The notes beneath the pieces are model-generated. The model saw nothing but the letters and a program-made list of their open reading frames with translations. It had not been told where the DNA came from and did not search any database. 64,000 nt of DNA from Paenibacillus durus ATCC 35681. GTDB lineage: Bacteria; Bacillota; Bacilli; Paenibacillales; Paenibacillaceae. This document shows, one piece after another, positions 20,588-31,000 of this stretch. Numbering within the stretch: position 1 is the first letter of the stretch; each line of letters opens with the position of its first letter. The stretch lies in contig NZ_CP011114.1 in NCBI RefSeq assembly GCF_000993825.1, forward strand, positions 5,511,485 through 5,575,484, read 5' to 3'. Both the position numbers and the translations under genes were made by a program.

Positions 20588-22666
20588 TTACTCTGCGCCT
20601 TTGTTCTTAGCCACGATCTCGTCCGCAATGGATTTAGGAACTTCTTCGTAGTGGGAGAGTTCCATCGAGAATACGCCGCGGCCTTGTGTACCGGAACGCA
20701 GGGTAGTGGAATAACCGAACATTTCGGAAAGAGGTACTTTCGCACGGATAATTTGGGCTCCGGCGCGGGAATCCATACCTTCGATCCGTCCACGGCGGGA
20801 GTTCAGCATACCCATAACGTCGCCCATGTATTCCTCAGGCACTGTTACTTCCACTTTCATGATTGGCTCAAGCAGGACAGGTTTACACTTGTCTTTGGCT
20901 GCTTTAAGCGCCATCGAACCGGCAATTTTGAACGCCATTTCGTTGGAGTCGACATCATGGTAGGAACCATCAACGATGGTTGCCTTGACATCAACGAGCG
21001 GGAAGCCGGCGATAACGCCGTTCTTCATTTGCTCTTCAATACCTGCAAGCGCAGGGGCGATGTATTCTCTCGGTACGGAACCGCCGACAACCTTACTTTC
21101 GAACTGGCTGCCAGTACCTGCCTCAAGAGGCTCGAATTCAACCCATACGTGGCCGTATTGACCGCGACCGCCGGACTGACGAACGAACTTACCTTCGACG
21201 CGAGCCGGAGCTCTGAACGTTTCACGATAAGCAACCTGTGGTTTACCAACGTTGGTCTCCACCTTGAATTCACGACGCATACGGTCAATGATGATATCCA
21301 AGTGAAGCTCACCCATACCGGCAAGAATCGTTTGTCCCGTTTCTTCATCGGTATGCGCGCGCAGCGTCGGGTCTTCCTCAGTAAGCTTGCCGAGAGCAAC
21401 GCCCATTTTGTCTTGGTCGGCCTTCGTCTTAGGTTCAACTGCGATCTCGATAACCGGATCCGGGAAGTTCATCGATTCGAGAATAACCGGATGCTTCTCA
21501 TCACACAGTGTATCACCTGTTCCAGTGTCTTTCAAACCTACAGCAGCTGCGATGTCTCCGGAATACACAATAGAGATTTCCTGGCGGCTGTTCGCGTGCA
21601 TTTGCAGGATACGTCCGATACGCTCGCGTTTGCCTTTTGTGGCATTCAGAACGTAAGAACCGGACTCCAGAATACCGGAATATACGCGGAAGAAGGTCAG
21701 CTTACCAACATAAGGGTCAGTCATGATTTTAAATGCCAACGCGGAGAACGGCTCTTCGTCCGAAGAGTGACGCTCGGCTTCCGTACCATCTTCGAGATGA
21801 CCCTTGATCGATGGAACATCAATCGGAGCCGGCAGGTAATCAATAACAGCGTCCAGCATCAGCTGAACCCCTTTGTTACGATAAGAAGATCCGCAGATCA
21901 CCGGGAAAATCTTAACGTCCACTACGCCTTTGCGCAGTGCAGCCTTGATTTCGTCAATGGTAATCTCTTCGCCTTCCAGGTACTTCATGGTCAGATCTTC
22001 ATCGAGTTCCGCAACTTTCTCAATGAGCTCGTTGCGCAGCTCTTCGACTTGATCCAGGAATTCGGACGGGATATCCGTCACTTCAATATCACGGCCAAGA
22101 TCGTCTTTGTACATATGGGCTTTTTGCTCTACCAGGTCGATGATGCCGATGAAGTCGTTCTCGGCACCGATCGGCAGCTGAATGGCAACCGCATTTGCTT
22201 GCAGACGCTCACGCATATCCTTAACTACGTTAAGGTAATCCGCTCCGATGATATCCATTTTGTTAACATAGGCGATCCGGGGAACGCCATAACGGTCAGC
22301 CTGTCTCCAAACAGTTTCAGACTGAGGCTCAACGCCCTCTTTTGCACTGAAAACGCCTACTGCCCCGTCCAATACACGAAGGGAACGTTCAACTTCAACG
22401 GTGAAGTCAACGTGTCCCGGGGTATCAATGATGTTGACCCGGTGACCTTTCCACGCAGCAGTGGTAGCGGCGGAAGTAATCGTAATTCCGCGCTCCTGCT
22501 CTTGCTCCATCCAGTCCATCGTTGCTGCACCTTCGTGAACTTCACCGATTTTGTGCGTACGGCCTGTATAGAAGAGAATCCGTTCCGTGGTGGTTGTCTT
22601 ACCAGCGTCAATATGCGCCATGATCCCGATATTACGTGTATTTTTCAAGGAGAACTCTCTTGCCAT
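20588..22666 (-). CDS. fusA: Elongation factor G
   Basis: Translocation GTPase. The 692 residues have [19 protein letters not shown] (G1) near residue 18, the switch [19 protein letters not shown] (G3) and NKMD (G4), then domains II-V ending [16 protein letters not shown]. It lies 47 bases after rpsG. A long open frame antisense to it is a shadow of its codon use. Confidence 0.99.
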
Positions 22667-22713
22667 GAATGGGGTCTCCCTTCAAAAATGAAGTTATTTG
22701 ATTGACCTTGATC

Positions 22714-24212: not shown

Positions 24213-27200
24213 TTATTCAGCCGGAACAGTTTCCAAAGCTTCCTCTTCGCTTTGCTCTTCTTCCGGATTGACCAATTTGACATTGCGGTAGCGGTTCATG
24301 CCCGTTCCGGCAGGAATCAGCTTACCGATAATAACGTTCTCCTTGAGGCCGAGCAGTTGGTCGACCTTGCCTTTGATGGCCGCGTCGGTCAGCACGCGCG
24401 TCGTCTCCTGGAACGATGCCGCGGAAAGGAAGGAGTCTGTTTCCAGCGATGCCTTCGTAATACCGAGCAGCACAGGCTTCGCAACAGCCGGTTCTTTACC
24501 GGACAGAATTACTTCCTTATTCGCTGCTTCATATTCATGGATATCCGCAAAGGAGCCAGGCAGCAGGTTAGTGTCACCGGCATCAATGATGCGGATTTTA
24601 CGCAGCATTTGTCTAATCATGACCTCAACGTGCTTGTCGTTGATTTCTACGCCCTGGTTCCGGTATACGCGCTGAACTTCCTGAAGGATGTAGTTCTGCA
24701 CGCCGCGGATACCCTTGATGCGCAGCATTTCTTTCGGATCGATGGAACCGTCGGTCAGCTCGTCGCCGGCCTCGACCTCATCTCCTTCGCTTACTCGCAG
24801 GCGTGATCCGTAGGTAATCGAGTAGACTTTTGATTCCGCTTCACCTTGAACCTCGATTTCGCGGCGGTCCTTCGCTTCGCGAATTTCCTTCACGACGCCG
24901 TCGATTTCACTGATGGTCGCTTGCCCTTTCGGGTTACGCGCTTCAAACAGCTCTTGGATACGCGGAAGACCTTGCGTGATATCGTCGCCCGCAACGCCCC
25001 CGGTATGGAACGTACGCATAGTAAGCTGTGTTCCCGGTTCACCGATAGACTGTGCGGCAATAATGCCGACGGCTTCGCCAATCTCGACGTGCTTACCGGT
25101 AGCCAGGTTGCGTCCGTAGCACTTCTTGCAGACGCCGTGACGGGCGCGGCAGCTCAGTACGGAGCGGATTTGCAGCTTGCCTACGCCGGCTTTAACGATC
25201 TCTTCCGCTTTGTCGGAATCAATCAGATCATTGCGATGCACAATGATTGCTCCTGTTTCCGGATGACGGACGGTCTCGAAGCAGTAGCGGCCTTCAATAC
25301 GGTCGTACAGATCCTCGATAACCTCTTTGCCGTCCTGGATACGGCTAACGGTAAAGCCTTTGTCGGTGCCGCAATCATCCTCGCGGACGATTACGTCCTG
25401 GGCCACGTCTACGAGACGGCGTGTCAGGTAACCGGAGTCGGCGGTACGAAGCGCCGTATCCGCCAGACCTTTCCGCGCTCCGTGAGTAGAGATAAAGTAC
25501 TCGAGGACGGTCAGGCCTTCGCGGAAGTTCGCTTTGATCGGAAGTTCGAAAATGCGTCCCGACGGCGTCGCCATCAGTCCGCGCATGCCGCCAAGCTGGG
25601 TAATCTGCGATTTGTTACCCCGCGCTTTGGAATCCACCATCAGCATGATGGAATTGAAACGGTCCATCGATTTCATAAGCACGTTGGTCAGATCATCTTT
25701 CGTCTTGGACCAGATCTCAATGACGCGGTCATACCGCTCTTCATTAGTAATGAGACCGCGGCGGTATTGCTTGGCAACAACGTCGACCTTCTCTTCGGAT
25801 TCCTTCAGAATGGCTTTCTTCTCTTCAGGAACGATTACGTCCGATACAGCGATCGTTACACCCGCACGGGTAGAGTAGGTAAAGCCAAGCTGCTTGATTT
25901 TATCCAGAATAACCGATGTTTTGGTTGTATGGTAAATTTCGAAACAGCGGGCGATAATCGAGCCGAGATATTCTTTGCCGACAGCGCCAGCGATCGGAAC
26001 CGCATCAATCAGTTCGCGGATATTGGCGCCTTTTTCGTAAATGAAATATTTCTCCGGCGTGCCTTGCAGCAGATTGTCGCGTGTCGCTTCGTTGATGTAA
26101 GGAAAGCTTGCCGGGAAAATTTCGTTGAAAATAATTTTGCCGACGGTTGTGATCAGCATAGCGGTCTGCTGCTTCTCGGTGAAGCTGGTCTTGTTAAGCG
26201 CCTTGACCGGAATGGCTACGCGCGCATGAAGACCGGCTGTGCCGCGCTGATATGCGGAAACCGCTTCGTTCACGGTACGGAGAATCATGCCGCTGCCCTG
26301 TTCTTCCTTGTTGTCCATGGTCAGATAGAAGGAACCAAGAACCATATCCTGGGAAGGGGTAACGACCGGCTTGCCGTCTTTCGGGTTCAAAATGTTGCCG
26401 GATGCCAGCATCAGAATGCGTGCTTCCGCCTGTGCTTCCGCGGAGAGCGGAACGTGCACGGCCATTTGGTCACCGTCAAAGTCAGCGTTGTACGCTGTAC
26501 ATACGAGCGGATGAAGACGAATGGCATGGCCTTCCACCAGAATCGGTTCAAACGCTTGAATACCGAGACGGTGAAGCGTGGGGGCACGGTTTAGCAGAAC
26601 CGGATGCTCTTTGATGACCTCTTCAAGCACATCCCAAACTTCCGGGCTTACGCGCTCGACTTTGCGTTTCGCGCTCTTAATGTTATGGGCCAGTCCTTTG
26701 TTAACCAGTTCCTTCATGACGAACGGCTTGAACAGCTCCAGTGCCATTTTCTTAGGCAGACCACATTGGTACATTTTCAGGTAAGGGCCTACGACGATAA
26801 CGGAACGGCCGGAATAGTCAACCCGTTTACCGAGCAGGTTCTGACGGAAACGGCCCTGCTTACCTTTCAGCATATGGCTGAGCGATTTCAGCGGACGGTT
26901 GCCTGGGCCCGTTACCGGGCGGCCGCGGCGGCCGTTGTCGATTAGAGCGTCGACGGCTTCCTGAAGCATCCGTTTCTCGTTCTGCACGATGATATCCGGA
27001 GCGCCAAGGTCAAGCAGTCTTTTCAGACGGTTGTTGCGGTTAATTACGCGGCGGTACAGGTCGTTCAGGTCAGACGTAGCGAAACGTCCGCCGTCCAGCT
27101 GTACCATCGGACGCAGTTCCGGCGGAATAACCGGGAGAACGTCCATGATCATCCAGTCGGGCTTATTGCCGGAGTTGCGGAAAGCTTCGATCACTTCAAG

Positions 27201-27827
27201 GCGCTTGATCGCACGGTTGCGGCGTTGGCCTTGAGCGGTGCGCAGTTCTTCCTTAAGGAATTCCAGCTCTTTTTCGATATCAAGATCCTGAAGCAGCTTC
27301 TTGACCGCTTCCGCGCCCATGCTCGCTTGGAAGCCGTAGCCGTACTTCTCGCGGTAGCTGCGGTATTCCTTCTCGGACAGCAGCTGTTTCTTCTCCAGAG
27401 GCGTATCGCCGGGATCGGTTACGACATAAGATGCGAAGTAAATAATCTCTTCCAGCGATCTCGGAGACATATCAAGCGCGAGACCCATGCGGCTCGGAAT
27501 GCCTTTAAAATACCAGATATGCGAAACCGGAGCAGCGAGCTCGATATGGCCCATACGCTCGCGGCGCACTTTGGCGCGTGTGACTTCGACGCCGCAGCGG
27601 TCGCAGACTACGCCTTTATAACGGACGCGTTTGTATTTGCCGCAATGACACTCCCAGTCTTTTTGCGGTCCGAAGATCCGTTCGCAGAAAAGACCCTCTT
27701 TTTCCGGCTTGAGTGTGCGATAGTTGATGGTTTCCGGTTTCTTAACCTCTCCGCGGGACCAAGAACGAATCTTCTCCGGGGAAGCCAGCCCGATTTTCAT
27801 GAATTCAAAATTGTTTACGTCCAACAA
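24213..27827 (-). CDS. rpoC: RNA polymerase beta' subunit
   Basis: Catalytic subunit of RNA polymerase. The 1204 residues show the N-terminal zinc site (Cys60, Cys62, Cys75, Cys78), the magnesium-binding [12 protein letters not shown] motif with its three aspartates around residue 450, the bridge and trigger regions, and a second zinc site [13 protein letters not shown] near 890. It starts at TTG behind GGAGGG. A 199-base gap with GC-rich palindromes separates it from rpoB. Confidence 0.99.
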
Positions 27828-28026: not shown

Positions 28027-31000
28027 TTATTCCACTCCGACTTCCGCACCTTCCAGATTGAGGCTCAGCTTGTCGCTTGAAGTCTCATCCTCGTCGTCCA
28101 GTTCTTTCATTTCGATCTCCTGCTCGTCACCGCTCAGGATTTTGACGTCCATACCGAGAGACTGAAGCTCTTTGATCAATACTTTGAAGGACTCAGGAAC
28201 GCCCGGCTCCGGCACATTCTCGCCTTTGACAATGGATTCATATGTCTTCACACGTCCGACAACGTCATCGGATTTAACAGTCAGAATCTCTTGCAGCGTA
28301 TAGGCGGCGCCGTAAGCTTCAAGCGCCCACACTTCCATCTCGCCGAAACGCTGTCCACCGAATTGGGCTTTACCGCCGAGCGGCTGCTGCGTAACGAGCG
28401 AGTATGGTCCAGTGGAACGGGCATGGATTTTATCGTCGACCATGTGCGCCAGCTTGATCATATGCATGACGCCGACCGTAACTTCACGCTCAAAACGTTC
28501 GCCCGTCCGTCCGTCGTACAGAATGGTCTTACCGTTACGCTGCATGCCGGCTTCTTCCATCGTGTCGAACACGTCATACTCACGCGCTCCATCGAATACC
28601 GGCGTTGCGACGTGGATACCCAGACGCATGGCGGCGAATCCGAGGTGAACCTCAAGCACCTGCCCGATGTTCATCCGCGAAGGAACGCCCAGCGGGTTCA
28701 GCACAACCTGTACCGGTGTTCCGTCCGGCAGGAATGGCATATCTTCTTCAGGCAGAATACGGGCTACGACACCCTTGTTGCCGTGACGTCCGGCCATTTT
28801 GTCGCCCTCGGAGATTTTACGCTTCTGAGCGATATAGACACGAACCAACTGGTTGACGCCAGGAGGCAGCTCGTCGCCGTTCTCGCGTGTAAATACCTTG
28901 ACGTCGACGATAATGCCGTCGCTTCCGTGAGGCACGCGCAGGGAAGTATCGCGCACTTCGCGGGCTTTCTCACCAAAGATCGCGTGCAGCAGGCGTTCTT
29001 CCGCCGTCAGCTCCGTCACGCCTTTTGGCGTAACCTTGCCGACGAGAATATCGCCAGCGCTGATTTCCGCACCGATCCGGATAATGCCGCGCTCATCCAA
29101 ATTGCGAAGGGCTTCTTCGCCTACATTCGGAATATCGCGCGTAATCTCTTCCGGTCCGAGCTTCGTATCCCGCGCTTCGGATTCGTACTCCTCGATATGG
29201 ATCGAAGTATATACATCCTCTTTCACCAGCTTCTCGCTCAGCAAGATGGCATCCTCGTAGTTGTAGCCTTCCCAAGTCATAAACGCAACGACTACGTTGC
29301 GGCCAAGGGCCAATTCGCCCATCTCCGTGGAAGGACCGTCTGCCAGGATATCACCTTTCTTGACGATATCGCCTCTCTTGGCGAGAGGACGCTGGTTAAT
29401 GCAAGTACCTTGGTTCGAACGCATAAATTTGTGTAATTTATATTTAACGATGTCGCCTTTAACTTCTTTGCCGTCTACAGTCTCAACACGCCGCAGCCAG
29501 ATTTCGTTGGCAGAAGAGCGCTCGATGATACCGTCATATTTAGAGACGATACATACGCCCGAATCTTTTGCCGATTTATGCTCCATTCCCGTGCCGACAA
29601 GCGGCGCTTTCGGAATGAGCAGCGGAACGGCCTGACGCTGCATGTTGGAACCCATCAGCGCGCGGTTGGAGTCATCGTTCTCAAGGAACGGAATGAGCGC
29701 CGTCGCGACGGATACAACCTGTTTTGGCGAAACGTCCATGTAATCTACTCGGTTGCTCGGCATTGTCGTGATGTTGTCGGACAGCTTGTTGTAACGGACG
29801 ATAACCATCTCATCCGCAAACGTGCCTTCCTCCGTCAAATCGGCATTCGCCTGAGCGACTACGTAATTATCTTCTTCGTCTGCCGTGAGGTAATCGATTT
29901 GTTCCGTGACCTGACCCGTCTTTGGATCGACCCAACGGTACGGCGCTTCAATAAAGCCGTATTCGTTAATGCGGGCAAAAGTGGACAAGGAGTTGATCAA
30001 ACCGATGTTCGGACCTTCCGGGGTCTCGATCGGACACATCCGGCCGTAGTGACTGTGATGGACGTCGCGTACCTCAAAGCCCGCGCGTTCACGTGTCAGA
30101 CCACCCGGACCGAGCGCGGACAGACGGCGTTTATGCGTCAGCTCCGCAAGTGGGTTCGTCTGGTCCATAAACCGTGACAGCTGGGAGCTTCCGAAGAACT
30201 CCTTGATCGACGCGATAACCGGACGGATGTTGATCAGCGCCTGCGGCGTGATCGCATTCGCATCCTGAATCGACATTCTCTCCCGCACCACGCGTTCCAT
30301 CCGGGAAAGACCGATACGGAACTGGTTCTGCAGAAGCTCGCCCACGGAACGCAGACGGCGGTTGCCCAAGTGGTCGATATCGTCGGTGTTGCCGATACCG
30401 TGCAGAAGATTAATAAAGTAGCTGATCGAGGAAATAATATCAGCCTGAGTGATATGCTTGATCGATTTGTCGATATTGCCGTTAGCGATGAGCTTAATCA
30501 CTCTCCCTTCTTCAATCGGGGAGAATACCTCCACCGTTTGGAGAGGAATGTCTTCACTATCCAGAACGCCACCGCTTACGCGGTAGGTCTTGGCAGCCAT
30601 ATTTTTTTCGAAATACGGCAGCAGTTCGTCCAGCAGACGGCGATCTACCATCTGGCCGGTCTCGGCCAGAATTTCCCCGGTCGATTCATCCACCAAAGGT
30701 TGAGCCAGCCGCTGGTTAAAGAGACGATTCTTGATGTGCAGCTTCTTGTTGATTTTGTAGCGGCCCACATTTGCCAGGTCATAACGCTTAGGGTCGAAGA
30801 AACGCGCTACGAGCAAGCTCTTGGCGTTATCAAGCGTCGGCGGCTCGCCCGGACGAAGACGTTCGTAAATTTCGATAAGCGCCTTCTCCGTAGAGTCCGT
30901 GTTGTCCTTGTCAAGGGTGTTCCGAATATATTCATCATTGCCAAGCAGTTCCAGAATTTCAGCGTCGCTGCCGAATCCGAGAGCACGCAGCAGCACAGTA

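Follow-up and report, generated by a model that had tools for sequence, protein, structure and literature searches.

Arginine at RpoB residue 467 of Paenibacillus durus ATCC 35681 is probably a recent rifampicin-resistance mutation

The RNA polymerase beta subunit of Paenibacillus durus ATCC 35681 carries arginine at residue 467, in rifampicin cluster I, where the relatives that we examined carry glutamine. Taken as a whole, the explanation that we regard as highly probable is a recent A-to-G mutation in rpoB, with rifampicin resistance as its expected effect and selection by rifampicin as its inferred cause. The change is a textbook resistance allele, ordinary in kind. The stretch of DNA that was analyzed (the window, 64,000 nucleotides) lies at the end of a genome of 5,575,484 bases, assembled as one contig with 100% completeness, and its relevant features are listed in Table 1 together with those found elsewhere in the genome.

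Table 1. Coordinates of the features discussed; ranges without a label are window positions.
Feature	Position	Strand or extent	Details
rpoB, RNA polymerase beta subunit, 1181 aa	28027..31572	minus	TTG start, stop-free; TIGR02013 1820.7 bits (cut-off 801.15)
Codon 467, CGG (Arg)	30172..30174	minus	plus strand reads ccg
Rifampicin cluster I, residues 461-491	30100..30192	minus	from the RpoB ORF
rpoC, beta-prime subunit	24213..27827	minus	one private residue
rph (putative)	G000:C1:5345234-5347825; L070 1501-4104	full length	NF041857 1490.4 bits
Predicted rph sense promoter, TTGCCT-17-TATAAT	L070 1354-1382	sense	sequence scan
Predicted rph antisense promoter, TTGACA-17-TACAAT	L070 1464-1436	antisense	sequence scan
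Predicted helD promoter pair, TTGATT-17-TAAAAT facing a perfect TTGACA-17-TATAAT	L073:1361-1468		start sites 38 bp apart

A sequence-only reading of the window had placed an arginine codon at the position of E. coli Gln513. This was confirmed: the codon was read in an intact frame, and the residue aligns with the glutamine of the SQLSQFMDQ motif in the solved RpoB proteins 6wvj and 8x6f. Residue 469 of B. subtilis and residue 513 of E. coli are equated in Table 3 of PMC10128067. Arg467 belongs with the cluster I rifampicin-resistance alleles of RpoB in that it replaces the residue equivalent to E. coli Gln513. Arg467 aside, the cluster is identical in 26 of the 29 congeners printed, and the remaining three have Gly in place of Ala476. 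A genome-wide frame search returned one rpoB frame, intact, and the idea of a second rpoB copy was therefore rejected.

Arginine at this position is unusual in the genomes sampled. The motif around codon 467 was found in 99 of 100 genomes of a genus sample and has a Gln codon in 98 of them; the two exceptions to Gln are the genome studied here and G089, a genome of 71% completeness from which the motif is absent altogether. All 98 other motif-bearing congeners thus have Gln (CAG or CAA). A phylum sample, which shares one genome (G038) with the genus sample, gave the motif in 143 of 149 genomes (it is missing from six) and the motif with Gln in 142, leaving our genome as the sole motif holder with another residue. 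A broader scan, for Arg or an AGY serine codon in the same motif, produced six matches, three of each kind, from 84,980 species genomes, a number that is the size of the scanned collection and not of the subset holding the bracketing motif; the scan may omit records very near our own genome. The three Arg carriers are all distant: Gammaproteobacteria bacterium MFB021 (L035), a Microlunatus MAG (L038) and a Syntrophobacterales MAG (L039). Serine at the 513 position (SQLSSFMDQ) occurs in three Bacilli/Bacillales MAGs (L034, L036 and L037), with FFAS and LTNKRR nearby, and these genomes possibly represent lineage-wide altered rifamycin pockets.

We compared RpoB with those of its closer relatives, the nearest congeners by rpoB DNA being G099 (97%, larger piece only), G053 (96%) and G018 (95%). 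Against the 29 best-matching congeneric RpoBs (L041-L069, of which L049, from G099, is partial), the only private residues are Arg467 and Asp578; column 467 is invariant, with Gln in 29 of 29, and column 578 is variable. Because Arg467 is the sole private residue at a column invariant in these proteins, it is by this comparison beyond ordinary variation. Over the whole protein, the differences from our RpoB to that of G053 are I371V, R467Q, D578E and A586K. Six close relatives, whose RpoB proteins are 99-100% identical to ours, were also compared alone, using minus-strand frames (many of them not genes) that had matches of 60% identity or more in no fewer than five of the six. Here V371I and E578D, both conservative, are likewise private at otherwise invariant columns. 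In EF-G (window positions 20591-22681, minus strand), N397H, in stop-to-stop numbering, is also private against the six at an otherwise invariant column. By these alignments Arg467 is not the sole private change in conserved genes: RpoB residues 371 and 578, EF-G and RpoC have others.

A protein search scored 7995 matches, and the best 120 of these comprise 118 proteins with Gln and two with Arg. The best listed match, P0001, is a partial protein of 865 residues from a 9516-base contig, and 863 of the 865 are identical to our RpoB. The two proteins differ at R467Q and at residue 317, the first of P0001, which may be an edge effect; Ile371, Asp578 and Ala586 are common to both. The second match, P0002, is the RpoB protein of G099. 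Named RpoBs in this list begin at 96% identity over the region searched, and the nearest of them carry Paenibacillus names. P0001 and L049 (G099:C661) have different RpoB sequences and both start at residue 317, which in G099 is a contig edge.

Aligning RpoB with close relatives, the check that the sequence-only reading had proposed for recency, gives Gln in the relatives. Since the examined relatives and P0001 have Gln, the change looks recent, a single A-to-G transition that would have turned codon 467 from CAG into CGG. Gln is the wild-type state among the kin, by the 98 congeners and P0001, and Arg467 the derived one. The simplest reading is that Arg467 postdates the split from the organism of P0001 and arose, very probably, inside the species itself. 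The same comparisons bear on whether Arg could be a fixed ancestral residue in a naturally resistant lineage. The three distant Arg carriers indicate that the residue is tolerated, but the Gln of P0001 and of the examined relatives makes this barely credible. The sequence-only reading had offered a lineage with natural resistance as one of its alternatives; with Arg absent from every other motif-bearing congener and Gln in the 29 congeneric RpoBs and P0001, resistance of that kind through RpoB is unsupported, and we rejected it. A narrow literature search, which required all of its terms together, found no paper on intrinsic rifampicin resistance. A wrong base call or a fault of assembly at a single position would also explain a one-base difference, but it is very unlikely given the completeness of the single-contig genome and the 99-100% identity of the rpoB protein to six relatives; such an error would moreover have had to hit, by chance, a base whose change yields a textbook resistance allele.

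The expected effect of Arg467 follows by analogy from B. subtilis RpoB Q469R and E. coli RpoB Q513R, in which the residue, the substitution and the cluster I context are the same as here. Glutamine at this site would sit in the pocket where RNA polymerase binds rifampicin and would hydrogen-bond the drug, as in the direct bond between Gln469 and rifampicin given in PMC5817088, and arginine in its place would weaken rifamycin binding while the enzyme still functions. The B. subtilis allele Q469R lifts the MIC of rifampicin from 0.125 to >4 μg/mL (PMC10128067). It accounts for 51 of the 128 spontaneous B. subtilis mutants from flight samples and for 22 of the 53 from ground controls, shares that we summed from tables 4 and 5 of PMC5817088, and was present among the spontaneous resistant mutants of all six flight units and five of the six ground units in that paper. 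In B. velezensis, Q472R gave an MIC of 0.256 mg/mL, among the two weaker degrees of resistance in its set (PMC5303731); the residue is the same if the numbering is shifted by +3, as H485 and S490 suggest. From these parallels the strain is expected to be rifampicin resistant. The other alternative of the sequence-only reading, a recent resistance mutation, thereby finds support in the Gln of the 98 congeners and P0001 and in the characterized B. subtilis allele.

Changes at this residue are pleiotropic, which leaves room for selection that did not involve the drug: in laboratory culture an effect on transcription, growth, metabolism or sporulation could have been favoured. Sporulation of B. 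subtilis is inhibited by Q469R (PMC5303731, citing earlier work), which also alters how susceptible the cells are to the beta-lactam CEF and fosfomycin (PMC10128067); how E. coli Q513R ranks in fitness varies with the medium (PMC10427823). We nevertheless find such an origin improbable: the same substitution is frequent after rifampicin plating (PMC5817088), and rpoC offers no convincing partner change. The private residue of RpoC, K510Q, was defined against 26 congeners. Glutamine stands at column 510 in 10 of the best 120 listed RpoCs, a search in which no listed match exceeds 91% identity and from which the close clade is therefore missing, and K510Q was dropped as a compensatory change on this ground.

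Rifampicin selection would most simply have been the laboratory picking of a spontaneous resistant, marked strain, and we lean towards this simplest origin with only modest confidence. Its closest precedent comes from the genus itself. Of the best 120 of 7995 matches, the two with Arg are P0105, named P. polymyxa, and P0107, P. polymyxa E681. They are identical over their last 1000 residues and share the Gln-to-Arg change of our RpoB, which lies at residue 467 of 1181 in P0105 and at residue 473 of 1187 in P0107, in a species different from ours. E681 as used in PMC7538429 "is a spontaneous rifampicin mutant", and spontaneous rifampicin-resistant types of E681 served in tests of root colonization (PMC11322358). 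If the listed E681 sequence is that of the marked line of the paper, as we assume, this precedent suggests that marked strains do enter databases. Nothing points to a mutator, as the mutS1 frame (978.7 bits, 985 aa) and the mutL frame (600.4 bits, 693 aa) are both present and stop-free; a mutator origin was set aside on this basis, judged by stops only. The sequence-only reading had also held that the genome is not generally drug-selected, the usual resistance sites in rpsL, rpsE, rpsJ, rplD and rplK looking wild type. The comparison with the six relatives bears on this in part: S12, S7 and L11 carry no private residue, the one private residue in the S10 frame lies ahead of the start of the ribosomal protein, and EF-G carries the one named above.

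The genome likely encodes a second means of resisting rifampicin, a rifampicin phosphotransferase (Rph). The predicted protein matches family model NF041857 (cut-off 999) over residues 4-864 of 867, at full length, and scores 1116.9 against the narrower model NF000283, below its cut-off of 1700. It aligns along its length to 5fbs, and its His823 falls on the histidine at position 825 of that protein in GGLMTHGAVIAREYG, so that the swivel-domain histidine, which we take to be His825 of the Listeria enzyme, is conserved. By similarity to a related model named phosphoenolpyruvate synthase (NF004879), which served as the yardstick for the genus, this layer is common: 84 of 100 genomes in the genus sample, our own included, score over the cut-off, a count by score alone in which the matches of G061 and G074 hold stops and that of G056 is split. 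A 51-residue frame at L071:1501-1656 (G000:C1:151023-151184) matches the N-terminus of rph, ends in a stop and scores 65 bits to NF004879; it appears to be what remains of a second copy that was lost. HelD_BACSU has two matching frames above 1000 bits and a third that reaches 435 bits together with its neighbours (cut-off 419). An Arr enzyme was rejected as a further rifampin defence, since PF12120 has no match in our genome; the control search was positive in Corynebacterium. B. subtilis also has an Rph homologue (Pps) and HelD (PMC12802891), so in this respect the two genomes do not differ.

The presence of a full-length Rph somewhat weakens the case for drug selection, as a target mutation was not obviously needed for survival. 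It also bears on whether Arg467 arose in nature, as a species polymorphism selected by ansamycin-producing neighbours in soil or rhizosphere. Natural exposure is plausible given how common Rph-type genes are in the genus, and the cave isolate Paenibacillus sp. LC231 joins an RpoB change to Rph (RphB) in one genome, as here (PMC5155152). LC231 differs from our strain in its RpoB residue, Ala473Thr, in its cave origin and in that a decreased sensitivity to rifampin was measured (PMC5155152). Against a natural origin, none of the 98 other motif-bearing congeners has Arg, the only Arg proteins among the best 120 of 7995 are those of P. polymyxa and its strain E681, and an inducible Rph would presumably already cover natural exposure. 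We consider a natural origin possible but doubtful, and laboratory selection the better account.

Rifampicin induces helD of B. subtilis by way of two convergent promoters separated by about 39 bp, and pps is preceded by a similar layout (PMC12802891). Predicted pairs of this kind lie upstream of rph and of one helD in our genome (Table 1). The inferred start sites of the rph pair (L070:1354-1464) are 41 bp apart, and the helD distance of 38 bp compares with 39 bp in the published system, whose convergent layout is shared. The antisense spacer is 17 bp here, as found by scans that covered spacers of 16-18 bp, and not the 19 bp of B. subtilis (PMC12802891). With both extended -10 signals required and with thresholds that were fixed after the pairs had been seen, each upstream region was shuffled 2000 times by dinucleotides and never yielded a like pair; under the same conditions the 64-kb window had none, and neither had 116,917 bases from six relatives. 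At a looser threshold the rph genes of G053, G044 and G071 have a like pair at 42 bp, those of G048 and G099 gave only weak pairs, and the other two HelD-type frames scanned (L074 and L075) revealed no convergent pair.

The published alarm needs drug-bound polymerase, and the rpoB change H482Y abolishes induction of helD in B. subtilis (PMC12802891). By analogy with H482Y, Arg467 should disable the alarm and leave rph and that helD uninduced by rifampicin. It is conceivable, if unlikely, that this has taken place in a wild strain, a target mutation laid over an inducible alarm having silenced it because a polymerase with Arg467 would no longer be arrested at the antisense promoters and Rph and HelD would stay uninduced. 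Were this true in nature, selection would no longer act on rph and helD in lineages with Arg467, which would have given up a drug-inactivating defence that also protects neighbours for a private one.

Our findings carry a caution: a genome that stands for its species may hold a recent, possibly laboratory-selected, resistance mutation. On the reading that we prefer, a recent resistance mutation, resistance prediction should not treat the rpoB of this genome as the type for its species. The case is otherwise ordinary, and its interaction with the alarm is of modest interest: with Arg467 and the paired promoters one could test simply whether, in bacteria other than B. subtilis, inducible defences against rifamycins are disarmed by target mutations.
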